Shown here: in pieces, positions 3,244 through 23,004 of the stretch | Layout of the letters: the number at the start of each line of letters is the position of its first letter | Position numbering within the stretch: the first letter of the stretch is position 1 | Source: a virus | Length of the DNA stretch: 24,490 bases | Virus record (IMG/VR): IMGVR_UViG_3300032046_000212 | Span: 1-24,490 of that record | Reading direction: 5' to 3' (one strand) | The notes under the pieces: generated by a model | Databases searched by the model: none | What the model was told of the DNA's origin: nothing | The model's input: the letters and a program-made list of their open reading frames with translations, nothing else | Program-made: the position numbers and the translations under genes

Positions 3244-4239
3244 TCAATCCCAGTTGACCGGGTAGCCGGCCTGCTCGAGGATCTCCGACGAGCGGATGTC
3301 GATGGCTCCATCGACGTCAGACGCCATGGCGACCTTCGAGCCATCTTCCGAGGGACCGAGGATCATGACGGCAGCGACACGCTCGCCGGCCTCCTCGCCA
3401 TCCCAGCCTGCGGCTGCGGCCTTCTCGATAGCCAGCTCTGCAGCGAGCTCATCGATGGCCGAAGCCTTCTTGTCACGGGTCGCTGCGTAGCCTGCGCCAC
3501 CAGCTGCGGCAGCGCCTGCTGCACCGGTTGCTGCGCGAGTCCGGAAGACCTTCTTGCCTTCTTCCGCAGCCGCCGCACCCTCACGCGTACCCTTGTCCTT
3601 GGCCAAAGCCTTGTTGACGCGGGACGACATGCTGTCGCCGCTGAGGTTGTCGCTGATCTTGTTGGCCTGCGCACTGCGTGCGGCATGCGTGTCACGCTTC
3701 GAGCCCGACAAGAGCTCCTTGTAGCGCTTCGCGCCAGCGCTGGCGTGCTCGCTGACGTAGTCAGCTGCATCGCCGACGGACTTCTTCACGGACTTCTTGC
3801 CCGAGTGGTACATCTGCTTGAGATGCGAGCCCTTCGGCAGGGAGAGGGCCTCCTTGGTGGAGCCGTCATCCGTGGCCTCAGCGATCTTGTTGAGCTCCTG
3901 GACGTAGGCGTGAGCCATGACGCGTCCGAGGAAATCAGCCTCACCAAGCTTCTCTTGCTGGGCCTTCTTCTCCTCGTGCTCTTCCTTGGCCTTCTCCTTC
4001 TTCTCACCACCGTCCTTGTCGTCCTCGTCCTTGTCGTCGGAGGCCTCCTTGGAGAAGGTGTTGTTGTACAGGGTCTCGACCTGCGCGTCAGTCAGCTGGT
4101 TGAGGTCGATGCCCTCAGCCGCTGCCATCTTCGCGAACAGCTCGACCTGCGCCTGCTTGCCCATGCCGTCGTCCGTCGCCTCTGCAACACCGCCACCGGT
4201 GCCGTAGTACTCGGCGAGGAATTGGTCCATTCCGCTCAT
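3244..4239 (-). CDS. Charged internal head or scaffold-like protein
   Basis: The 331-residue protein overlaps the end of the protease gene by four bases (ATGA), suggesting translational coupling. Visible parts are a helical segment around 32-66 (DLNQLTDAQVETLYNNTF), a very charged Asp/Lys/Glu run at 64-98, a conserved-looking helix at 101-118 (ADFLGRVMAHAYVQEL), a Lys-rich middle, an Ala/Gly-rich stretch near 235-258 and an acidic C-terminus. A twelve-residue element starting AEATDDG occurs twice (residues 19-30 and 120-131), each ending K-[QE]-A. The composition resembles prohead core or scaffold proteins. The Ala/Gly stretch might be a membrane-like helix but is weak. Function is inferred from location only. 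Confidence 0.45.
   Translation of the reverse strand: MSGMDQFLAEYYGTGGGVAEATDDGMGKQAQVELFAKMAAAEGIDLNQLTDAQVETLYNNTFSKEASDDKDEDDKDGGEKKEKAKEEHEEKKAQQEKLGEADFLGRVMAHAYVQELNKIAEATDDGSTKEALSLPKGSHLKQMYHSGKKSVKKSVGDAADYVSEHASAGAKRYKELLSGSKRDTHAARSAQANKISDNLSGDSMSSRVNKALAKDKGTREGAAAAEEGKKVFRTRAATGAAGAAAAGGAGYAATRDKKASAIDELAAELAIEKAAAAGWDGEEAGERVAAVMILGPSEDGSKVAMASDVDGAIDIRSSEILEQAGYPVNWD
3847..3882 (-). repeat. Second copy of AEATDDG element
   Basis: It encodes AEATDDGSTKEA at residues 120-131 of the same protein, matching the copy at 4150-4185 in nine of twelve residues. It follows the K-x-A form LNKIAEA. Confidence 0.6.
4150..4185 (-). repeat. First copy of AEATDDG element
   Basis: It encodes AEATDDGMGKQA at residues 19-30 of the 331-residue head-cluster protein. 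The partner copy is at 3847-3882. Residue matches are kept although codons differ, so the similarity is at protein level. Confidence 0.6.
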
Positions 4240-5897
4240 TGAACTCTCCGTGCATTGAACATGCTCAACGTGTTCTTTGAGGGGGTTGCCCTCTCCACGG
4301 TGGCCGAAGCCTGAGCGATCTTGGTTTCCCCCGACTCATCCCGGAACGCATCCTGGATGTACGCAACCGACATCGGCGTGAAGACCTGGTCCGCAGGAGC
4401 GCCGGCGAGCTTCGCAAGGTGAATGTCTTCACCTGCGATGTCTCCGATCAAGTCCTGACTGTGAGCGACCATGTTCATTACACCGTGCCGGTAGCTGTCG
4501 TAGGCACTGCCCATCTTACGCATCGAGGAAGATGAATGGGAAGAAGTGCCCTTTGTCTTCTCTTCAGTAGCCTTGGAGGGCAGACCGACGACAATGATTG
4601 TTCTTCTTTCGATGAACGGGCCGAGCATCGATCTACCGGGCAGGTGGCCAAGCATCATCATCGCCAGAGCCTTGTTGAACTTCTCTGGGGACTGCTTGAT
4701 TTCCGCGTCCTCTGAGCCGCCCGAGACGTGATCGAACTCACCCGGCTTGAGAATAATCCCGAGGCCAGAGGCCGTAGAAAGGGAGTCCTCAAGGGGCAGA
4801 TGCTTCATCACATCCAAGATATCGTCCGGTAGATCTTCTTCGTGCTTCGACAGAACGGGCACAGCCTTCCCGGTGAACTGACTGGGGATGACGTCCTTGG
4901 TCATCTCGCTCTGCTTGTTCTTGGCTGCCTTGCCGATGAAGGCAATCTTGAGCGGGTCGTCCTCAACAACAGAGGCAATCTTCTCTTCTCCTTGGAAGGC
5001 GGGGAAGAGGACCTCGTTGCCCTCAGCATACCCAAGCTTCTCAGCGAGCTCCGCGCTGCCAGCAATCTTCATCATCGTCTTCGCCGTACGGTCGGCGCCT
5101 ATGAAGACGAAGCTGATGTCAAAGAACTTGGGGTAGTCGTTGTAGACGAACACCTTCCGACCGTCGGGCCGGATACGGTTCATCTCTCGCTTGGCGTGCT
5201 CGCAGTAGTCCGCTCGAGTGATGGAGACGCCGCGGATCTTCTTGGCCTTGTGCCACCGAAGGATGGCATCACCAGGGTGCTTGTCTTTGCCCTTGATGAA
5301 CGTGGCCTGAGCTCGGTGGTACGTGTCCCAATCGAGGCAGATAGAACACGTATCAAACGGCACCTTCGTACCCATCGAGACATCGGGGAACTGCCCGCTC
5401 TGAAGCTTGTCCCAGACCTGCAGTCCTCCGAACTTCTCGCACTTGTCCTTGTCGACGCGGCAGACAAGTTCCACCCGCTTCATGCTCGGGTGCCAGACCG
5501 CGAGCTCCACCTCACCGAAGGCTCGAGTCGAATCCTTGTTGCGATGGTGGGCGTAAGGATGCGCCAGGTAAAACGTGGGAAAGCCGAAGGGCCAAGTCTT
5601 CGCCTTGATCTTGTCGACCAAAGGGTTGCCTGACCAATCGTCCGGAGCATGGATGAGGGATGCCTCCGGGAAGGCATCACCGTTGATGTTCGAGCCGTAG
5701 TACTCGCTGGCGCCCATGGCGTTGACTAGGACGTACTGAGAGCCGTTCTGCGGACGCAGCGACGCGATGTACCGGTTCACGTCTGGGAGAAGTTTGGCCG
5801 AAGCAGTCTTCTCAAAGACAGAGTCCGCCGGGCCGAAGAGCGGGACGGCACTCGGACCGTGCTCACTCTGGCCGGCGAACGTACTGATCTTGAGCAT
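4236..5897 (-). CDS. Capsid maturation (prohead) serine protease
   Basis: The 553-residue protein looks like a phage prohead protease of the assemblin-like Ser-His fold, which trims scaffold and shell proteins inside the procapsid. The visible signature is a His region at 110-118 (YLAHPYAHH) followed by NKDSTRAFGEVELAVW, then the probable nucleophile S174 in PDVSMGTKVPFDTCSIC, and a closing strand FFDISFVFIGADRTA near 258-272. C184 and C187, with C232 and H234, form a CxxC/CxxH set that could bind zinc. Residues from about 275 to 553 form a long extension, which may be a fused scaffold domain and contains several K-x-A motifs (FEKTAS at 28-33, EKIAS, LAKLAG, TKIAQ). The gene lies three bases after the upstream gene and overlaps the next by ATGA. 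Which histidine is catalytic cannot be settled by eye. Confidence 0.78.
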   Translation of the reverse strand: MLKISTFAGQSEHGPSAVPLFGPADSVFEKTASAKLLPDVNRYIASLRPQNGSQYVLVNAMGASEYYGSNINGDAFPEASLIHAPDDWSGNPLVDKIKAKTWPFGFPTFYLAHPYAHHRNKDSTRAFGEVELAVWHPSMKRVELVCRVDKDKCEKFGGLQVWDKLQSGQFPDVSMGTKVPFDTCSICLDWDTYHRAQATFIKGKDKHPGDAILRWHKAKKIRGVSITRADYCEHAKREMNRIRPDGRKVFVYNDYPKFFDISFVFIGADRTAKTMMKIAGSAELAEKLGYAEGNEVLFPAFQGEEKIASVVEDDPLKIAFIGKAAKNKQSEMTKDVIPSQFTGKAVPVLSKHEEDLPDDILDVMKHLPLEDSLSTASGLGIILKPGEFDHVSGGSEDAEIKQSPEKFNKALAMMMLGHLPGRSMLGPFIERRTIIVVGLPSKATEEKTKGTSSHSSSSMRKMGSAYDSYRHGVMNMVAHSQDLIGDIAGEDIHLAKLAGAPADQVFTPMSVAYIQDAFRDESGETKIAQASATVERATPSKNTLSMFNARRVQ

Positions 5898-8433: not shown

Positions 8434-8571
8434 GTGCTCAAAGAACCCGAGTGCAAGATGTGCAAGTGCCCCCAGTCCAACCACTTCAAGGACTACGAGG
8501 GGTACTGGGCCTGCCTCACCACGTTTTGCAAGTGCACGAAGTACGTACCTCCAGCACCGAAGAAGCCCTAA
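8434..8571 (+). CDS. 45-residue zinc-ribbon-like mini-protein
   Basis: The frame opens with GTG at 8434, preceded by TGAGG, six bases after the helix-turn-helix gene, and ends TAA at 8569-8571. The product has C7, C10, C12, H17, C27, C32 and C34 in 45 residues, reading ECKMCKC, then SNHFKDYEGYWAC, then FCKCTKYVPP. This C-x2-C-x-C / C-x4-C-x-C pattern with a central His resembles small zinc-binding proteins common in phage genomes. Its stop overlaps the terminase stop on the other strand by four bases. It is likely co-transcribed with the regulator gene. It is short and lacks an ATG, but the clustered cysteines and tight spacing support it. Confidence 0.6.
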   Translation: MLKEPECKMCKCPQSNHFKDYEGYWACLTTFCKCTKYVPPAPKKP

Positions 8572-10388
8572 CCCTGGTTCGTAGGGCCTGAGTAGTTCGA
8601 GAAGAGCGGACCACGGGTCCCGTCCTCCCTGTTCGGCGAGATGATGTCTGGCCTGGGCTGCATGATCATCGATGCGAGCAGGCAGTACAGGACAGCGTGA
8701 AACGTATCGTCCGGTTTGTCGGGACCGTGGCTGTACTGGATCATCCGCAGCGTCTCGTTGTACTCGCTGAAGATGTTGAGCATGTCCTGGGCGAAGGGCT
8801 CTCGCCACTCCTCCCAACGGGGGAACTCAATCTGGTTCCGCTTGATGGCGTTGAAGACATCGCTCATCACTTCCGTGCGGTGCACCATCCAACGCTTGTA
8901 GTTCGGGTTCCAGTTGACCTTCTTCTTGGTCTTCGCCATGTACTGGTACTTGTGCACGCGCTGCGTGCCGAACTCACGTACCAGCCGGTCATTCGAGTGG
9001 AAACCACCACCGTAGTCGGCGCCGATGACACGGACGTTGAAGTCCTTGAGCATCTGCACAATGATGTTGAGCTGTACAACGGGATCGGTCTCTTCACCCT
9101 CGAAACGGTGGGCATAGAAGACTCGGAACTTCGTCCCGACGTACATGCCGAGAACGAGCACCGTGAATGAGTGCTCCCCAGTACCCCAGTCGAGCCCTGC
9201 GTAGATCGGATGGCCGTGCGCCAGTGCCCGATACTTCTTGAGCATGTCCGGGTCCATCGTGACCTTCGGGTGCGAACACTCCTGCACCTGGGCAGTTGTG
9301 AGTGGACGCATGCCCGAGTCGAACGAGATGCCGAGGACTTCGTTGTAGAACTTGTCCCGAGGATACCGCCTGTAGTCGAGCAGGATTTCATCCCAGCTCT
9401 TCCACGGCACCATGAGCTGGGGAATGCGGTAACTCTCGAACGGGGTTCTCTGAGGGTCATACCGCACCATGTTCGCCCACTGGGCGTCAGGGTGCGCCGG
9501 GTTGATGAGCCCGCCGCACTTCTCACAGGACAGCCCCTTCAGGCCGATGTTCTTCTCGCCCAGAACGTTCCAGTACCTCCCCGTCTCTCCGCCGTGGGCA
9601 TCGCAGGGGACAACCCACTCACCCTGCGTGGAGAGGTTGGAACGGTAGTACTCGATGACGTTGTCGAGACTCTTCGGGGTACCGGCGTAAATGTACCGCT
9701 TCCATGCCTCAGGCGCGTGGCTGGTGCACTGCTCGATGATGGGGATGTTGTCCCCGAGGATGTCCTGGAGCTCGTCTACGCAGAGGCCCCAGGCCGGGAT
9801 GCCTCGAGTACGGTCGGCGTTGAGGAAGGCGTAACGCAGTGTGATCTTCGAGCGGTTGATGAACTGCTTCTCGAAGACGTTCTGCTGGAGCACGCTAGTC
9901 GTGAATGACTTGAGGACGTGGCTGGTCTCGAGCGGGTCCTTGATACGGTCGTGGCTGAAAGTCTTCGTCTGCGTGGCCGACGGCGACACGTACAGAGATC
10001 GATACCCTGCCACGAGGCAGGAGTAGGCGATCATCTTGTTGCCCAGCAGCGTGGACTTCTCTACCTGTCGAGCGCAGAAGAGTAGGATGCGGCGAGCTGG
10101 GGTGTCATAGGGCTGACGCATATGGCGTCGTCCCTCGAAGGAGAAAGGCACGTAGCCGAGCCCATCATCTCCCGGCATGCGGAAGGCGAACTCGGTGAAC
10201 TGAGATGGTAGAACTGCGGGTATGCGGCCTAGTAGCTTCTTCTGCTTGAAGGGCTCGTCTAGGTCCGTAATGAGTTCCTGCTCCGGAAACCAGAGCTCGC
10301 TATCGTCGAGAAGGTCCTCCTCAGCGGCTGCTGCGTTCTCCTGATAAGCGATCTCTTCAGGATCTAGTTGAGTGCTAACCGCTGCCAT
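8568..10388 (-). CDS. terL: Terminase large subunit
   Basis: The 606-residue protein is the ATP-driven DNA packaging motor with a headful-type nuclease. The ATPase half shows a Walker A-like CARQVEKST at 105-113, a Walker B GLCVDELQDI (V204, D205, E206) and a coupling-region AGTP at 235-238. A Cys pair with a nearby Cys (C262; C288 and C291) suggests a metal-binding insert. The nuclease half shows the RNase H-like acid triad: D400 in YAGLDWGTG, D458 in VIGADYGGG and D561 in PDDTFHAV. The usual glycine before the Walker A lysine is Glu110. The stop overlaps the convergent mini-gene by four bases. The Shine-Dalgarno before ATG 10388 is poor and there is no coding gene on this strand for 252 bases upstream. 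Confidence 0.93.
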   Translation of the reverse strand: MAAVSTQLDPEEIAYQENAAAAEEDLLDDSELWFPEQELITDLDEPFKQKKLLGRIPAVLPSQFTEFAFRMPGDDGLGYVPFSFEGRRHMRQPYDTPARRILLFCARQVEKSTLLGNKMIAYSCLVAGYRSLYVSPSATQTKTFSHDRIKDPLETSHVLKSFTTSVLQQNVFEKQFINRSKITLRYAFLNADRTRGIPAWGLCVDELQDILGDNIPIIEQCTSHAPEAWKRYIYAGTPKSLDNVIEYYRSNLSTQGEWVVPCDAHGGETGRYWNVLGEKNIGLKGLSCEKCGGLINPAHPDAQWANMVRYDPQRTPFESYRIPQLMVPWKSWDEILLDYRRYPRDKFYNEVLGISFDSGMRPLTTAQVQECSHPKVTMDPDMLKKYRALAHGHPIYAGLDWGTGEHSFTVLVLGMYVGTKFRVFYAHRFEGEETDPVVQLNIIVQMLKDFNVRVIGADYGGGFHSNDRLVREFGTQRVHKYQYMAKTKKKVNWNPNYKRWMVHRTEVMSDVFNAIKRNQIEFPRWEEWREPFAQDMLNIFSEYNETLRMIQYSHGPDKPDDTFHAVLYCLLASMIMQPRPDIISPNREDGTRGPLFSNYSGPTNQG

Positions 10389-16318: not shown

Positions 16319-19300
16319 TCAGTAGTGGTGTTCCGGGACGTCCTTGAGCTTACCTAGTCCCGGCAGCTTCGACTTTGCCTGAGTCATCCCGAACTCTGCT
16401 CCAAAAGCGATGCCTGGCACTGGGTGGAGTCCGTGGATGTTGGACTGCGCATGAGTAGAGGCTGCATCGAGGATGGTGTCCTTCAGCCTCTGGTGTTGCA
16501 GCTTCGCCATCCAGTCTTCCTGCAGCGAGAGCGGCATCATGTCGACACCCTTCAGCACAGGCTTGTGCTCGATGGGGTTCTTGCCAGCCTTCACCAAGTC
16601 CGAGTTGATCTTGCGGATGATGGAGAGTGGGCGGAAGTCTCCGCGCAATGTCTCATGGTGATCGCCTGGGTCGACGATCTTTGTGAGGTTCGACATCGCA
16701 CTCACCACGGTCTCGACAGCACGACGGCGGACACCCTCGCTCTTATAGAGCTCATGAATCTCCGAGGTCATGTGGTTCTGGACCTTCTCCATGTTCCCAG
16801 TGGCCTTATACAGATCATGGGGGTTCACGAACGTGCGATTCGGGTCGGACAGGTGCTGTCCCGCATCGAAGTGCATCCCCACTTTCGGCGCCTCCCAAGG
16901 GATGAAGCCTTCGACTTGCTTCTCGTGGGGGAGAAGTTCGTGCAGTGGCATGCCGCTGTCGTCCTTGCCGACGAAGTGCTTCACGCCGCCGATGAAGATG
17001 TTCGCCCCGATATCCGTCCTCTCAATCTTGTCCACCTTCCCCGAGTGCATGGCAAGAGAAGAAGCGTTGGGGATCTTCTGGGGGAGCATGGTGAGCTGCT
17101 GGAACCGAGCGAAACTGTTCAGTAGTTTGCCACCTCCCTGCTCCTTCACGCCTCCGGTGTGGAAGCTCTTGAGCGTGAGCTGGACGGCTCGCTCTCCCAC
17201 GGCATGTGCCGCCAAGACACCCAGGTTGGTGCCGAGGGGGTGGTCATGCCCGCCGTGGCCGAGGCCGGCGTCCATCTGACAGATGCCCTTCTCGCTCTCG
17301 CACTTGAGGGGGCTGCGGACGACGATCTTCGCATCCTTCTTCGCCGCTATGATCTGCCCCACAACGTCAGGGCTCAATCGGGTCCCGGCAGTGATGTGCA
17401 TCTGCCCGTGCTTGAAGTCCTCAGCGAGGTAGCGATCATGAACATCCGGCTCGTGGATGTCCAAGGAGATGCCCTTCTTGGTCCCGCAGTCGTGCTCGTT
17501 GACCACCAGGTGCATCATGTTGTTCATCAGGAGCTTCGACATGTAGCCGGGCTCCTGAACCTCTTGAACCTTCATGACGGCGCCGCGTCGAGCTCCGTGC
17601 ATCTGAGTCCAGTACCCGCCCACGTCGAGCCCTTCGGAGTAGCTCTTGGTGACTGGTGTGGGGATCTTTCGGTCCGCCGAGTCTCGGTAGATCATCGGAG
17701 CGATGACCATCTGCTTGTACTGCTCCCAGCCCGGCTTCACGCCTGCTTGGTACATCTGGAACAGGTTCGTAGGATCTTTCTTGAGCTTCTCCTCGTGCTT
17801 GTCCTTGATGGCCTCCTCAGCCTTCTCGTACACCACGATGGCCCGACGGTCCTTGTCCGCCTCCGGGATGTTGTGGTTGGCTCGAAGGTCCTTGACCTCC
17901 TTGTGGGCCTCAGCGAGCAACTTGTCTCGGGACTCGTGGTCCGGAGTGAAGTCTGCCAGGGACAGTGAGTGTGTCCCCACAGGGATGACAACCTTCTTCT
18001 TGGTCTCTGCCAGGGGAAGGTTCTTGTGGAAGACGAAGTTGTGGCCGGCGTTTTCCGGCGGGTGCACCTCGACTAGCCCGAAGGCTGCTCCGTTACCGAG
18101 GTCCTTCATCTTATTGACGATGCTTCCAAAGTCCTTCGGGTGGTTGTTGGCGATCGTAGTGAAGAGACTGTCGAGGCCCTTCCGGTGGATGCGGAAGTCG
18201 AGGTTGTGCATGACATCCTTCTGCATCGCTTCCGGCAGTGCCGTAGCAAGAAGGACTCGTCCTCCCGTTGTCTTCTTGTCGCCAACGTGGACGATGTCGT
18301 GGATGGTCAGATCTCCCTTACGAACCGCGTCAACGACCAGTCCTTCATGGGCGAACTTCTTCCCGGTGTCCTTGCCGGTGACGCTCAGTTTGTAGAGGCC
18401 CAGCGCGGCCTCGAGCGTGGGCGTGAACATGACCTTGCCCGTCGCGTCGTTGAACAGGTTGTTCGAGGGCATCATCTTGTATGCCTCGGCTACAGCCTCG
18501 TGGTGAATGGGCACGAAGATGCTCATCGTGTCCCCGTCGAAGTCAGCGTTGTATCCACCCGTGACGAGCGGGTGAATCTGGATAGCCTGACCTTCGACGA
18601 GCTTCGGCTTGAACGCCTGCACGCTGAACTTGTGAAGCGCCGGGTCGCGCTTCATGAGAACCGGACGCTCCTCAACCACCTTCTGCAGGGCGTGCCACAC
18701 CGCAGGGGTCTTTTGCGTGATGAGTTTCTGGGCCTCGATGGCGGTAGGCGCGTGCCCCAAGTCTCGTAGCTTCCGCACGACAAAGGGTTTGAAGAGGTCG
18801 AGCGCCGCCGTCCTCGGCAGCCCTACCTCGTCCAGTCCCAGGCTCGGCTCCGGCACAATCGTGGAGCGCATCGTCATGTCCTGACGGCGATCCATCAGCG
18901 TGCTCTGAAAGAAGCCAGTCTTCGGGCTTGCGCCGGCGATCTGGTGGAGGACACCCTTCTGGTTGTTCTTCGTGTCCTCGTAGGGGATGCCGACACCCAT
19001 GATGGCCTTCACGCCATCGTAGAAGTCTCTCCGGAGGTTCGTCTTACCGGGGTCGGTGAGGTTCTTCTTGAGGAAGGGGTCCCCAAGCTTCTCGTTGACC
19101 TCACCGAAGTTCGAGTAGAGGCCGTTCAAGTCGGCGTACTTCACAGCCCCTGTCGGTAGCATCGAGACGGGGCGCATCACCGGAGGGATGAGCGGGAGGT
19201 GGTGCAGGACATAGGCTTCGCTTGGCTTGAGGCCGAGCTCCTGCAGCGACTGGAGGTACTTCACCTTCTTCAGTGCCGGGTCGATCTTCGCCCCCTTCGC

Positions 19301-22300
19301 TCCCGTGAGCTCCTTCTTTGCCGACTTGAGATCCTTCTCTACGTCGATCTTGTCGAGAAGCATCTTGATGGCCGCACCACCCGTCACTCCTGAGCCAACG
19401 TCCACAAGGCTGCCCGTGGGGGCCACGCCACGCTCGCCGGAGACGACCGAGAAGTAGTCCTTCTTGGAGAGGCCCGTCAGTCTCTGGATGGGCTTCTCGA
19501 AGATAGGGTTCGGGACGGGCTCAGCCAGCACGATGTGCGACCACTTCCGGCCACCAAGACCGCCGGTGATTTTCTCGTCGAAGATGCCACCCGGACGGGG
19601 CTTGAGGTCGCCGTCCTTCAGCTTCGCATCCAGCCTCTCTGTGGGCTTCGGGATTGCCCCGTTGCTCATGTGGAGGATGTGCTTGTCCGTGAGGGGGGAG
19701 AGCGAGAACGCATGCCCCTGCTTCTCGACGTTCACACCGGACGCACGGAGCATGTCCGTGAACTTCTGGAAGGCAAAAGTAGACGTCGGCACCGGCAGCG
19801 GCTGGCCCGTCTGAATGGCCGTCCACACCTGGTTATGCTGGGAGTTCCAGGCCTTGGCGGGGTTGGTCTGGGGGTCTGCGCCCTCCGACTTCCACGTCTG
19901 CATCTCACGGACGTTGGCCTTGGCCCCGTGCGCCAGCATGGCGTACATGCCGAGGACACCCATGGATTGTCCGCCGGTTCCTGCACCGCTCGTGGGCTGC
20001 AGGTTCATGTCGTAGTGCTCGTTCGATCCAATGCCTGGAGAGCCCATACCGGAGCGGACACTCATCTTCTTGTCCACCTGATGGACCAGCTTGAGCATGT
20101 GCTGGGGACCGACCAAAGCCTTGCCAATTGAGTGGCCAGAGACCGGGTCAATGAGCTCTTCGGTGTCCGACAGTCCGTGCTCCTTGAGCTCCGACTTCAC
20201 TCGAGCAAGAGTGTCGACCATCGGCTCGAAGTTCTTCACCGTGTAGGTCTTGCCAGTCTTCTGGGCAACCTTGCCCGCACAGACCTCGAGCACCTGCCCA
20301 ACGTTCATACGGCCAGGGATCCCACTAGGGTTGAGGGCAACCTCGATGTGCTTTCCGTCCTTGGTGTGGGGCATGTCGTGGTCCGGTAGAACCATCGTGA
20401 CAATGCCCTTGTTGCCGTAGCGGCCAGCCATCTTGTCACCGACCTGCATCGGCTCGATGGTGCGCACATGGACAATGACGTCCTTGCCCGTCTTGTGCGT
20501 GCTGACGACTTCTCCCTGGAAGTCAGAGTCCCAGCGCATACTCTTGTCCGTGTGTGTTCCAGCCAACGAGCGCCGAATAGCCGCAACACCTGTGCGGTCA
20601 CGCAGACGGAAGGGCTTCATGGCCAGGATGAGAGGGTCTCCTGGGCTCACCTTCGTGCCGACACGCACGATGCCGTCATCACCAACCTTCTTGAGCTGGT
20701 CCTTCGTGAAGGTCGTGGGGTTCTGCACCTCGAACCTCTTCGGACTGAAGACCGTGTCTTCCTCGAAGGGGAGCGTGTGCTTGTGGAGATGCTGGCTTGA
20801 CAGCTTGTCCGCAGCGCTCTGGGAGATGACGATGCCGTCCTCGAAGTTGTAGCCCTTGAAGGGCACATACCCAACGCGGAGGTTCGTGCCGAGAGCCAGC
20901 GTTCCGTTCTTGGAGAAGTTGGTGTCAGCAACTGTCTGGCCCATCTTGATCTTGTCGCCGATAGCAACAAGCGGCGTAGAGTGCATGACACTCTTCGCGT
21001 CGTTCAGGGGGTAGTTGTTGTAGAGCTGAACTTCGTGCTTCTTGCCCGAGGCATCTTGGATGTGGATTGCATCCTTCTTGATGTCGGTCACCGTGCCGTC
21101 CACGTGTGAGCGGTGAGACGCCTGCTTGCCGACCACGTTCTCGAAAGTCTCGAAGCCCTTAGCCGTGACGCCCGAGGACACCTGCACCAGCGGACTCTCC
21201 CGATTCACCAGGGAGATCGACTGCTCGATGTGCCGGCTTGCCATGGACGCACGGTTACCGCTCGTGTTCCCCAGGAACGGGATCAAGTTCGAGGTGATGT
21301 TGAACAGCTGGCTCGGGTGACGAAGCACGTACTTCGCGTCGGAGAACTTGCCCTCACGAATCTCCTGCCCCAGCACATTCATCTTCACCTCTGGGTGCAG
21401 AGGTACTGGCTTGTTGTTCTCCCAGCGAACCTGGTCCGGGAGCACGATAGAGGACTTGTGGACCTCACCGGGCGGGACGAGCTCAGTCTTACCTGTCTGG
21501 ATATTGTAGAGGTGAATCTTCGGCTGGTTGCCATCCTTCTTCACGCCGATGGGAAGGCGAAGCGTGATGCCCGTCTTCTCCCCCTCCGGCGTATGAATGG
21601 GGTCGAGGAAGCCCAGGTGAGACGGGTTGACGAACTTCGCCTCATCCGTGACGGACTGCTCCGACTGGATGCCACCAGGCCCCATGATGGTTGTCTGCTG
21701 GGACGAGCTCACCATCTCCACCGGGTTGATCTGCGAGGCCACTCGGGTCGCGCTGTTCTTGTGGAAGATGTCCTTCATCGGCTTGTTGAACAGGTCGAAC
21801 TTCACGACCTCACGCACGGCCGTTGCCGTGTTGATCTTCCGGCTCGCCTTGTCTCGGATGGTGCGGCTGGCCTGGCGCAGCTTGTCGAAGGCGAAGTCCC
21901 CGACGGTACGCAGGTCCTTGAAGACAAGGCTGTCGCGGTCGTCCTCGGGGGCACCAGCCTGGACCTTGAGCATCTTGGCCGTGGCCAGGTGCATGGCCTC
22001 TCCCGTCACATGTGGGAACGCCTTGCCCAGCGTGAGCTCCGTTGCCTCAGGGCGCATCTTCGACTCGGTCATCGTATCGAAGAGGTGCTGCTTTGCTTCC
22101 TCTGCCGATGCCGGTGCCACGCGCTTGTCCGCCTTGAAGAAACGCTCCACGGCGCCAGCCGTACCTCGAGCATTCTTGTTGTCCTCGAGGATCTTCTTGC
22201 CCCAGGACTTCTCGAGATCGTCATCCGCGATGCCCATCGTCTTGAGGATGGGGTAGAGCGGTAGCTTGCTCTTGCCGTACTCCATCAAGAAGCGGTTCGA

Positions 22301-22747
22301 CTTCGGCTCGAACATGATGTCGAAGGCTTTGCGGCCCGACACATTGAAGCGGCTCTCGAGCTCGCCGTTACGCCGGCGCCGAACATAGACACCGGGCTTG
22401 AGCTGCCACTGGTTGTCGACCTGGTACTCCTGCCCATCGACGATGTAACTGTAGCGCTTCGTCATCTTCGGGATCTCAGCGACGCGCACACGCTGCGTGT
22501 CCACTGCTTTGCCCGTAGTGTTGTCCTTCAGCTCGAGCGTGGCGTAGACGGGGACACTCCAAGAGTCTCCGTTGATCTTCGCCTTGTGCTGCGAACGAAT
22601 GTCGTCCGGATCTAGGTGGTCCTTGGTCTCCAAAGACTTGAGATGGAGGGACTGCACCTTCCCATTCAAAGGGAAGTGCTGACGGATGCCCTCCTCAACC
22701 TTTTCTTGGAGGTGAGCAAACGCTTCCTGTGGATCTAGGTGCGCCAT
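16319..22747 (-). CDS. Single-chain beta-beta' fused phage RNA polymerase
   Basis: The 2142-residue protein carries both large subunits of a cellular-type RNA polymerase in one frame. The beta half has HTPEG (385-389), NRASM (498-502), GYNFEDG (632-638), GDKMAGR..GNKG (770-781), then PSGIPGRMNVGQVLE and, near 949, MQTW. About 90 linker residues follow. The beta' half begins near 1053 (GGIFDEK) and has RPVSMLP, DLFKPFVVRK, the metal-binding NADFDGD at 1400-1406 (D1402, D1404, D1406), a trigger helix MHGARRG from 1716, and GERAVQLTLKSFHTGGV. It ends in a KLKDVPEHHY tail. The beta' N-terminal zinc domain is absent. At the second zinc site C1754, C1816 and C1823 remain but the fourth Cys is D1826. 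At 2142 residues it is shorter than the E. coli sum. It heads the late block and no alpha or sigma is visible. Confidence 0.95.
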   Translation of the reverse strand: MAHLDPQEAFAHLQEKVEEGIRQHFPLNGKVQSLHLKSLETKDHLDPDDIRSQHKAKINGDSWSVPVYATLELKDNTTGKAVDTQRVRVAEIPKMTKRYSYIVDGQEYQVDNQWQLKPGVYVRRRRNGELESRFNVSGRKAFDIMFEPKSNRFLMEYGKSKLPLYPILKTMGIADDDLEKSWGKKILEDNKNARGTAGAVERFFKADKRVAPASAEEAKQHLFDTMTESKMRPEATELTLGKAFPHVTGEAMHLATAKMLKVQAGAPEDDRDSLVFKDLRTVGDFAFDKLRQASRTIRDKASRKINTATAVREVVKFDLFNKPMKDIFHKNSATRVASQINPVEMVSSSQQTTIMGPGGIQSEQSVTDEAKFVNPSHLGFLDPIHTPEGEKTGITLRLPIGVKKDGNQPKIHLYNIQTGKTELVPPGEVHKSSIVLPDQVRWENNKPVPLHPEVKMNVLGQEIREGKFSDAKYVLRHPSQLFNITSNLIPFLGNTSGNRASMASRHIEQSISLVNRESPLVQVSSGVTAKGFETFENVVGKQASHRSHVDGTVTDIKKDAIHIQDASGKKHEVQLYNNYPLNDAKSVMHSTPLVAIGDKIKMGQTVADTNFSKNGTLALGTNLRVGYVPFKGYNFEDGIVISQSAADKLSSQHLHKHTLPFEEDTVFSPKRFEVQNPTTFTKDQLKKVGDDGIVRVGTKVSPGDPLILAMKPFRLRDRTGVAAIRRSLAGTHTDKSMRWDSDFQGEVVSTHKTGKDVIVHVRTIEPMQVGDKMAGRYGNKGIVTMVLPDHDMPHTKDGKHIEVALNPSGIPGRMNVGQVLEVCAGKVAQKTGKTYTVKNFEPMVDTLARVKSELKEHGLSDTEELIDPVSGHSIGKALVGPQHMLKLVHQVDKKMSVRSGMGSPGIGSNEHYDMNLQPTSGAGTGGQSMGVLGMYAMLAHGAKANVREMQTWKSEGADPQTNPAKAWNSQHNQVWTAIQTGQPLPVPTSTFAFQKFTDMLRASGVNVEKQGHAFSLSPLTDKHILHMSNGAIPKPTERLDAKLKDGDLKPRPGGIFDEKITGGLGGRKWSHIVLAEPVPNPIFEKPIQRLTGLSKKDYFSVVSGERGVAPTGSLVDVGSGVTGGAAIKMLLDKIDVEKDLKSAKKELTGAKGAKIDPALKKVKYLQSLQELGLKPSEAYVLHHLPLIPPVMRPVSMLPTGAVKYADLNGLYSNFGEVNEKLGDPFLKKNLTDPGKTNLRRDFYDGVKAIMGVGIPYEDTKNNQKGVLHQIAGASPKTGFFQSTLMDRRQDMTMRSTIVPEPSLGLDEVGLPRTAALDLFKPFVVRKLRDLGHAPTAIEAQKLITQKTPAVWHALQKVVEERPVLMKRDPALHKFSVQAFKPKLVEGQAIQIHPLVTGGYNADFDGDTMSIFVPIHHEAVAEAYKMMPSNNLFNDATGKVMFTPTLEAALGLYKLSVTGKDTGKKFAHEGLVVDAVRKGDLTIHDIVHVGDKKTTGGRVLLATALPEAMQKDVMHNLDFRIHRKGLDSLFTTIANNHPKDFGSIVNKMKDLGNGAAFGLVEVHPPENAGHNFVFHKNLPLAETKKKVVIPVGTHSLSLADFTPDHESRDKLLAEAHKEVKDLRANHNIPEADKDRRAIVVYEKAEEAIKDKHEEKLKKDPTNLFQMYQAGVKPGWEQYKQMVIAPMIYRDSADRKIPTPVTKSYSEGLDVGGYWTQMHGARRGAVMKVQEVQEPGYMSKLLMNNMMHLVVNEHDCGTKKGISLDIHEPDVHDRYLAEDFKHGQMHITAGTRLSPDVVGQIIAAKKDAKIVVRSPLKCESEKGICQMDAGLGHGGHDHPLGTNLGVLAAHAVGERAVQLTLKSFHTGGVKEQGGGKLLNSFARFQQLTMLPQKIPNASSLAMHSGKVDKIERTDIGANIFIGGVKHFVGKDDSGMPLHELLPHEKQVEGFIPWEAPKVGMHFDAGQHLSDPNRTFVNPHDLYKATGNMEKVQNHMTSEIHELYKSEGVRRRAVETVVSAMSNLTKIVDPGDHHETLRGDFRPLSIIRKINSDLVKAGKNPIEHKPVLKGVDMMPLSLQEDWMAKLQHQRLKDTILDAASTHAQSNIHGLHPVPGIAFGAEFGMTQAKSKLPGLGKLKDVPEHHY

Positions 22748-22866
22748 GGGCTACCGAGAGGTTACCCCAGGACGCCGTGCATAAGAACTGAGAAGCGTGC
22801 AAGACCTCCCATTACGCGGGGATAAGTGTCTTGGTGGGAAACATCTCATCAGACTTTGGAGGTCGC
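22748..22866. promoter_or_regulatory. Divergent intergenic region
   Basis: These 119 bases separate the polymerase (minus) from the small plus-strand genes. It should hold promoters for both directions. I see no convincing -35/-10 pair. An inverted repeat (22803-22809 with 22858-22864) includes the Shine-Dalgarno of the first plus gene. Confidence 0.4.
22803..22864 (+). repeat. Inverted repeat enclosing an SD sequence
   Basis: GACCTCC at 22803-22809 is the exact reverse complement of GGAGGTC at 22858-22864, 48 bases apart. The right arm contains the GGAGG that serves the GTG at 22867. If the arms pair in RNA they would mask the ribosome site. Confidence 0.4.
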
Positions 22867-23004
22867 GTGGGTGTGCCGATGGTTGCGGGTCCCGGTCAGA
22901 CGGATGGCGGCATGTTCGAGGATGACATCGACAGTCTCTTCGATGGGAGTGACGACTACGACGACGACAGCGATGACCGAGACTCGGGCGGAGACGACGA
23001 TTGA
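22867..23004 (+). CDS. 45-residue acidic mini-protein
   Basis: This frame starts GTG at 22867 with GGAGG upstream (an in-frame ATG at 22879 is also possible) and ends TGA at 23002-23004. The product has a small Gly-rich N-terminus and then a run of Asp/Ser/Gly (MFEDDIDSLFDGSDDYDDDS, then DRDSGGDDD), giving strong negative charge. It has no recognised fold. Acidic mini-proteins in phages can be DNA mimics or partners of basic proteins, but there is no direct evidence here. The next gene's ATG overlaps its stop (TGATG), so the pair is probably translated together. A longer overlapping frame in another phase has repetitive Thr/Arg content and is not protein-like. Confidence 0.6.
   Translation: MGVPMVAGPGQTDGGMFEDDIDSLFDGSDDYDDDSDDRDSGGDDD

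Follow-up and report, generated by a model that had tools for sequence, protein, structure and literature searches.

Does the long open reading frame on the minus strand of IMG/VR virus record IMGVR_UViG_3300032046_000212, of which we analysed positions 1 to 24,490 (in the following "the window"), actually encode the beta and beta' subunits of a bacterial-type RNA polymerase as a single chain and, if so, how might a phage use such an enzyme? The original prediction, made from sequence alone, assumed that all key motifs of both subunits reside on one uninterrupted frame, separated by a linker of about 90 residues, and that this protein constitutes a compact, possibly alpha-independent transcriptase. 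As a first step we examined the frame itself, which runs from 22747 to 16319, comprises 2142 codons and contains no stop. Pfam profiles of both subunits match the translated protein, namely Rpb2_3 at residues 336-398, Rpb2_6 at 549-899 (E 4.5e-64), Rpb1_2 at 1352-1426 (E 1e-28) and Rpb1_5 at 1706-2030 (E 1.2e-18), and a phmmer search against the PDB retrieves bacterial RpoC with E values down to 3.9e-100. The NADFDGD motif is located at residues 1400-1406, exactly as had been predicted. The elements of the gene are as follows:

16319..22747, minus strand: gene of the single-chain RNA polymerase (2142 aa plus stop)
19718..22747, minus strand: beta part (residues 1-1010), with Rpb2_3 at 336-398 and Rpb2_6/catalytic barrel at 549-899
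20405..20452, minus strand: beta catalytic lysines K772 and K780 (E. coli K1065 and K1073) within GDKMAGRYGNKG
19694..19735, minus strand: joint between beta and beta' (residues 1005-1018), predicted as strand, two-residue turn G1011-H1012, strand
16322..19711, minus strand: beta' part (residues 1013-2142)
19535..19579, minus strand: place where the N-terminal zinc ribbon of bacterial beta' (E. coli C70-C88) is missing
18530..18550, minus strand: metal-binding NADFDGD motif (residues 1400-1406)
17270..17488, minus strand: second zinc site with C1754, C1816 and C1823
17150..17167, minus strand: trigger loop SFHTGG with catalytic H1863 (E. coli H936)

A frame of this kind could in principle arise from a sequencing error or an assembly fault joining two genes, or it could derive from a cellular contig mistaken for a phage, and a joining error of this sort had been named beforehand as a finding that would overturn the prediction. 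Nothing was found in favour of such an artefact, although some records in the phage collection do carry cellular-type rpoB and rpoC (e.g. the record designated L045, which, like similar records, appears to contain cellular polymerases). In IMG/VR we found 154 distinct full-length homologues which are uninterrupted single frames with a median length of 2081 aa. In the phylogenetic tree the sampled fused sequences form one clade (UFBoot 100) which is separate from the bacterial enzymes, of which, however, merely 6-7 were included as references, along with no archaeal ones. In addition, phage genes are present in the same operon, and the zinc ribbon is missing in all sequences aligned. The conserved frame in independent contigs refutes an artefact, and the observation that beta and beta' are fused in one phage gene is thus confirmed. 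One apparently unfused relative, L358, turned out to be one frame which is interrupted only by TGA codons read as Trp. Contigs of the L428 type, at first sight unfused as well, retain the joint and are cut about 110 residues into beta'. Phage polymerases with separate genes do exist (Cobetia phage Carin-5, Yersinia phage YerA41 and Rhizobium phages) but fall outside the fused clade.

To obtain indication of whether both halves are intact, we inspected the catalytic residues in an alignment of 153 sequences. The two beta lysines and the trigger loop with its catalytic histidine are conserved in 153 of 153 sequences, as are D1402 and D1404 of the NADFDGD motif, while D1406 is present in 150 of 153. 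Together with R425/P427 and R1106 (E. coli numbering), the residues checked are invariant or nearly so. In contrast, all four cysteines of the N-terminal beta' zinc ribbon are absent in the phage sequences. At the second zinc site the fourth cysteine is replaced by D1826 in the window protein, whereas a cysteine is found in 143 of 153 relatives. At the positions of the rifampicin contacts D516, H526, R529 and S531 the window protein harbours S, S, Q and T, so that its enzyme is predicted to be insensitive to this antibiotic. The fold was assessed by two AlphaFold models (pLDDT 86 and 85). The model of residues 965-2142 matches RpoC chains with a TM score of 0.80 (E 2.7e-65), while VIA-align yields Z scores of 34-38 to bacterial and plastid RpoB, a comparison which covers only the beta half of the model concerned.

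The assumed linker of about 90 residues is not supported. The residues in question correspond to the homologous beta C-terminus and beta' N-terminus, and in the alignment to E. coli merely about three residues separate the two subunits. Both AlphaFold models predict the joint as a hairpin of strands 1005-1010 and 1013-1018 connected by the two-residue turn G1011-H1012, with a local pLDDT of about 87-95. In an Arash-like subgroup beta' is cut further downstream, yet the joint at the cellular beta|beta' boundary is kept. This applies to Salmonella phage Arash (gp206 and gp216; PMC10585845) and Vibrio phages D69, D148 and D181, which possess genomes of similar size (181-187 kb) and in which beta' is broken after the catalytic barrel, leading to two proteins instead of one. 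Arash and D69 nest inside the fused clade. In these phages the protein is annotated as a "beta" subunit or as hypothetical, and the fusion is not noted.

We next considered the genomic surroundings of the gene. The polymerase gene heads an operon in which terminase, protease and baseplate-like genes follow, and the same gene order is found in the related records L002, L010, L014 and L033:

15015..16316, minus strand: next gene of the operon, baseplate-like (weak PHROG match)
8568..10388, minus strand: terminase large subunit (phrog_675, E 2.6e-55; PF05876, E 2.9e-8)
4236..5897, minus strand: probable prohead protease (phrog_18299, E 4.7e-4)

No homologue of the alpha subunit was detected in 19 related records, while the control was recovered in 13 of 14 genomes, and the related genomes hold one RNA polymerase each. 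No alpha was found in Arash or D69 either. A sigma factor homologous to Arash gp10 is present in 13 of 24 IMG/VR contigs, in Arash and D69, and in the large Arash-like contigs G037, G038, G039 and G043. No such homologue was found in several contigs, mostly incomplete ones but including the 170 kb contig G001, nor was one found within the window, which comprises only 24 kb. The absence of an alpha gene is compatible with two views. The single-chain core may be independent of alpha, which is supported although not proven, or it may still need host alpha, omega or a host sigma, so that the phage would replace only beta and beta' of the host enzyme. The latter view draws on the close resemblance of the chain to bacterial RpoB/RpoC in fold, the lack of an encoded alpha and the availability of host alpha in the cell. 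Host alpha could indeed still bind, but other phage multisubunit polymerases are described with beta- and beta'-like subunits only (PMC7598289) and a phage sigma is often encoded; we regard a requirement for host subunits as unlikely.

Evidence on the place of the enzyme in the phage life cycle comes from published mass spectrometry of Arash virions (PMC10585845). There, the beta-beta'N chain gp206 is the most detected of all proteins with 128 unique peptides and 3516 spectra, while the beta'C chain gp216 is represented by 40 and 1210, and sigma gp10 by 24 and 467, respectively. The second sigma factor, gp196, is not in the list. By analogy, the polymerase of the window is probably a virion protein, yet Arash is a relative with about 33% identity whose beta' is split, its authors allow for carry-over of abundant proteins, and their table contains odd rows (100% coverage with two unique peptides). 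The alternative, namely that the polymerase is made during infection as the first gene of the structural operon, serves middle or late transcription and reaches Arash particles by carry-over only, is in accordance with the gene order described above. However, virion proteins are in general made late together with structural genes, so that the operon does not speak against packaging, and the peptide and spectral counts of gp206, with gp216 and gp10 also strong and gp196 not listed, argue against mere carry-over. We consider this alternative possible but rather unlikely.

Finally, we searched for promoter-like sequences. Two near-complete relatives, G005 and G015, show a non-canonical motif, GCAA-N16-GGGATAAGAA, with 15 sites in G005 against 0.5 expected and 22 in G015 against 1.5 expected, although the motif matrix was trained on the same two genomes in which the enrichment was counted. 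A start codon with a ribosome site lies downstream in 12 of 15 and 14 of 21 cases, compared to 19% at random places. The motif occurs directly before the sigma gene in G003/G005, G004 and G007 (further related contigs), and a similar GGTATAAG class is present in Arash. A canonical sigma-70 motif (TTGAC..TAnnnT) was almost absent upstream of genes in the two near-complete relatives. Within the window, one site was found:

22799..22828, plus strand: promoter-like motif GCAA-N16-GGGATAAG, pointing away from the polymerase gene (20.8 bits; Markov expectation 0 at 14 bits in the window)
22867..23004, plus strand: small acidic ORF (45 aa) just downstream of that motif, a possible early gene (weak, by sequence only)

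The motif remains a correlation and could equally be read by host polymerase carrying the phage sigma. Furthermore, the polymerase gene itself lies at the head of the structural operon without the motif.

Taken together, sequence and models show a core of the two-barrel DNA-dependent RNA polymerase type in one chain, both halves of which are complete with their catalytic residues. The fusion was made at the old beta|beta' boundary by joining two neighbouring strands, so that no linker is needed, the beta' N-terminal zinc ribbon is gone, and no alpha gene is detectable in related genomes. What we infer, in the absence of biochemistry, is transcription activity itself, and further that the enzyme is packed in the virion, enters the cell with the DNA and, together with a phage sigma factor homologous to gp10, transcribes early genes from promoters of the type GCAA-N16-GGGATAAGAA, including in some genomes the sigma gene itself. 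We hold this explanation to be somewhat more likely than not. The interpretation given in the original prediction is supported only in part, as it correctly recognised a phage gene for fused beta and beta' but did not include that the fusion defines a whole clade rather than one phage, that the polymerase is probably a virion protein which probably works with a phage sigma factor, and that the chain has been re-cut inside beta' in the Arash-like subgroup.

Homologues, on which the original prediction had left the question open, are partly described. The mReC (multi-subunit-RNAP-encoding Caudovirales; Weinheimer and Aylward 2020, PMC7481178; 97 contigs) are tailed phages with beta and beta' which are readily alignable to cellular enzymes and form a clade apart from bacteria; the window meets this description within the limits of the bacterial references mentioned above. 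That paper treats beta and beta' as two subunits and mentions fusion only for crAssphage. The mReC capsid family PF07068 was found in none of 26 records in a search without positive control, and terminase family PF03237 (the mReC TerL being of PF03237/VOG01069 type) gave mostly weak matches in 8 of 26 records, while the terminase of the window matches PF05876. Tethered beta-beta' occurs in Helicobacter and Wolbachia, again with full beta and beta' in one chain, and a fused E. coli beta-beta' assembles into a functional enzyme (as cited in PMC1750930). These are cellular enzymes with alpha, omega and host sigma. The phage clade, in contrast, has lost the beta' zinc ribbon, has no detectable alpha gene and forms its own clade among the sequences sampled, which did not include the Helicobacter and Wolbachia fusions. 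In phiKZ-like jumbo phages the polymerases (vRNAP and nvRNAP) are likewise phage-encoded and related to beta and beta', and one version is in the virion (PMC7598289), but both subunits are each cut into two or more proteins, there are usually two polymerases per phage and no sigma (PMC7824862), as opposed to one chain, one polymerase and an often encoded sigma here. Crass-like phage RNAP and YonO combine both catalytic barrels in one chain, and the crAss-like enzymes as well as one P23-45 enzyme are virion proteins (PMC7886860, PMC10770324). The crAss-like enzymes are, however, so divergent that COG0085/COG0086 profiles do not detect them (PMC7481178), whereas the window protein matches RpoC with E 4e-100. 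We found no description of a full beta-beta' fusion in phages, albeit in a literature search restricted to open-licence papers.

A further-reaching view, which we put forward only tentatively and deem less likely than not, is that a large phage lineage carries a two-protein holoenzyme, consisting of one 2100-residue core chain and one phage sigma, packed in the virion, independent of alpha, omega and host factors and reading its own promoter class, i.e. a bacterial-type sigma-dependent transcription system reduced to two polypeptides. Bacterial-type RNA polymerase is taught as a multi-subunit assembly built on an alpha dimer, while a whole phage lineage appears to build the same core from one chain, with a joint that needs no linker, and to pair it with a sigma factor. 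If active alone, it would be a bacterial-type, sigma-programmable polymerase with only two parts to express, useful for studying mechanism and for synthetic biology, and it would show which core functions need alpha and the beta' zinc ribbon. It also gives a natural series of one, two and three pieces, cut at new places, for studying how polymerase subunits fuse and split, and it revises the annotation of Arash-like phages.

In the window the following feature is present:

16319-22747, minus strand: a single frame of 2142 codons encoding the fused RNA polymerase beta and beta' sequences.

The first half of this frame matches RNA polymerase beta (Rpb2 domains 3 and 6), while its second half matches beta' (Rpb1 domains 2 and 5), the latter being, by sequence, closest in PDB to bacterial RpoC (E 3.9e-100). 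The gene heads an operon which also comprises a baseplate-like gene, a terminase large subunit gene and the gene of a probable prohead protease. The same gene order recurs in L002, L010, L014 and L033.

Scans of IMG/VR yielded 154 distinct full-length homologues, each of which is one open frame, with a median length of 2081 aa. The originally predicted fused frame is real and conserved. The other homologues retrieved are either cut by contig ends or belong to two classes of exception. Firstly, the polymerase gene of L358 (contig IMGVR_UViG_3300025602_000002, 205 kb) is one frame if TGA is read as Trp, since it contains four in-frame TGA codons and its sister sequences carry Trp at three or four of these positions. 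This phage therefore probably uses TGA as a Trp codon. Secondly, in an Arash-like group consisting of Arash, the Vibrio phages D69, D148 and D181, the record L390 and the contigs G037-G043, beta' is cut after the catalytic barrel and, in some of these, also about 110 residues into beta'. In each member of this group that was examined, however, the chain carrying the beta catalytic barrel runs on across the cellular beta|beta' boundary. In Vibrio phage D181 (record L053, 1959-7473) a homing endonuclease gene, which is absent from D69, interrupts the beta part of the polymerase gene, possibly as part of an intron.

In trees which include six or seven bacterial references the fused sequences form one clade (FastTree 1.0, UFBoot 100). 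Phages with separate genes (Carin-5, YerA41 and a Rhizobium phage) lie outside this clade, while Arash, D69 and L390 group together inside it (UFBoot 99). The node which places the L038 group outside Arash is, however, supported by a UFBoot value of only 88. The simplest reading of these trees is one fusion event followed by later cuts inside beta'. L045 and other wastewater records of the phage collection (SA 1306 Kay, LM 4-11-1 and the like) carry cellular-type rpoB and rpoC. L045 groups with the E. coli enzyme in the trees and is likely to represent contamination.

Large in-frame insertions of about 330-530 aa are observed at conserved places in the polymerase genes of L017, L019, L035, L036, L037, L235, L249, L262, L310, L384, L385, L393 and L394. 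They are located after NADFDGD in eight genomes, near GRxGNKG, and at P811, E388 and H1863. Several of them start with Cys and end with SGN or SHN, and the three which were tested match LAGLIDADG domains, identifying them as inteins which have apparently been acquired several times.

Alignment to the E. coli subunits reveals that beta ends and beta' begins with about three residues between them. Two AlphaFold models of overlapping pieces (residues 440-1460, pLDDT 86.0, and residues 965-2142, pLDDT 85.2) agree on two strands formed by residues 1005-1010 and 1013-1018 which are connected by a two-residue turn. Hence, the linker of about 90 residues assumed in the original prediction actually consists of the homologous ends of the two subunits.

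In 153 aligned phage sequences the equivalents of beta K1065, K1073 and R1106 as well as of beta' R425, P427, D460, D462 and H936 are invariant. D464 is an aspartate in 150 of them, while R678, E813 and D814 are nearly invariant. In contrast, the N-terminal zinc ribbon of beta' is missing in all sequences. The second zinc site is retained in most, although its fourth Cys is replaced by Asp in the window. At the positions of the rifampicin contacts D516, H526, R529 and S531 the window protein has S, S, Q and T, respectively. The predicted structure of the beta' half matches RpoC chains over its length (TM 0.80), while that of the beta half matches RpoB with Z values of 34-38.

To obtain indication of possible partners, we searched 19 related records for the alpha subunit (PF01193), which was found in none of them, while the control gave a match in 13 of 14 genomes. 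In 18 of these 19 records the beta' profile detected one gene only, whereas in genome G011 two candidates were obtained at first inspection. A sigma-70-like protein homologous to Arash gp10 is present in 13 of 24 IMG/VR contigs, in Arash and D69, and in the large Arash-like contigs. According to the published analysis of purified Arash particles (PMC10585845), gp206 is the most detected protein (128 unique peptides, 3516 spectra), while gp216 (40 and 1210) and the sigma factor gp10 (24 and 467) are present as well. In the present study gp206 is identified as beta plus the catalytic half of beta', and gp216 as the rest of beta'. The authors of that study, however, note carry-over as an alternative explanation. 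A second sigma-like protein of Arash, gp196 (record L044, 4483-5520), in which Pfam recognises region 2 only, is not contained in the published virion protein list.

In two near-complete relatives, G005 (L400-L409) and G015 (L410-L419), an unbiased k-mer count upstream of genes raised GGGATAAG. The aligned sites share GCAA 16 nt upstream as well as a ribosome site and a start codon about 28 nt downstream, giving a promoter-like class GCAA-N16-GGGATAAGAA with a short leader. At 14 bits, 15 sites against 0.5 expected are present in G005 and 22 against 1.5 in G015, although it must be considered that the matrix was trained on the same two genomes. The motif was not seen before the polymerase gene but lies before small genes and, in G003/G005, G004 and G007, directly before the sigma gene. 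Arash shows a similar GGTATAAG class. In the window, two features are of relevance in this context:

22799-22828, site at 22819 on the plus strand: the only copy of the promoter-like motif in the window, pointing away from the polymerase gene.
22867-23004: a possible very acidic protein of 45 aa right behind this motif.

Phage multisubunit polymerases (mReC, phiKZ-like), single-chain two-barrel enzymes (crAss-like, YonO) and cellular beta-beta' fusions (in Helicobacter, and made artificially in E. coli, as cited in PMC1750930) are each known. We found no account of a full bacterial-type beta-beta' fusion in phages in the open-licence literature searched, nor was one shown in the consulted passages of a 2026 review of jumbo phages. 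The closest described group, mReC, may overlap with or include the present clade.

The original interpretation is partly supported. Sequences and models show a complete single-chain core with intact catalytic residues, the direct joint between beta and beta', the loss of the zinc ribbon and the absence of a detectable alpha gene in related genomes, which does not exclude that host alpha joins the enzyme. Packaging of the polymerase in the virion, in contrast, is inferred from a relative, and its transcription activity is only implied by sequence. Co-occurrence and the motif, finally, lead to the inference that the enzyme would initiate with a phage sigma factor at promoters of its own, located mostly before small genes that may be early genes.
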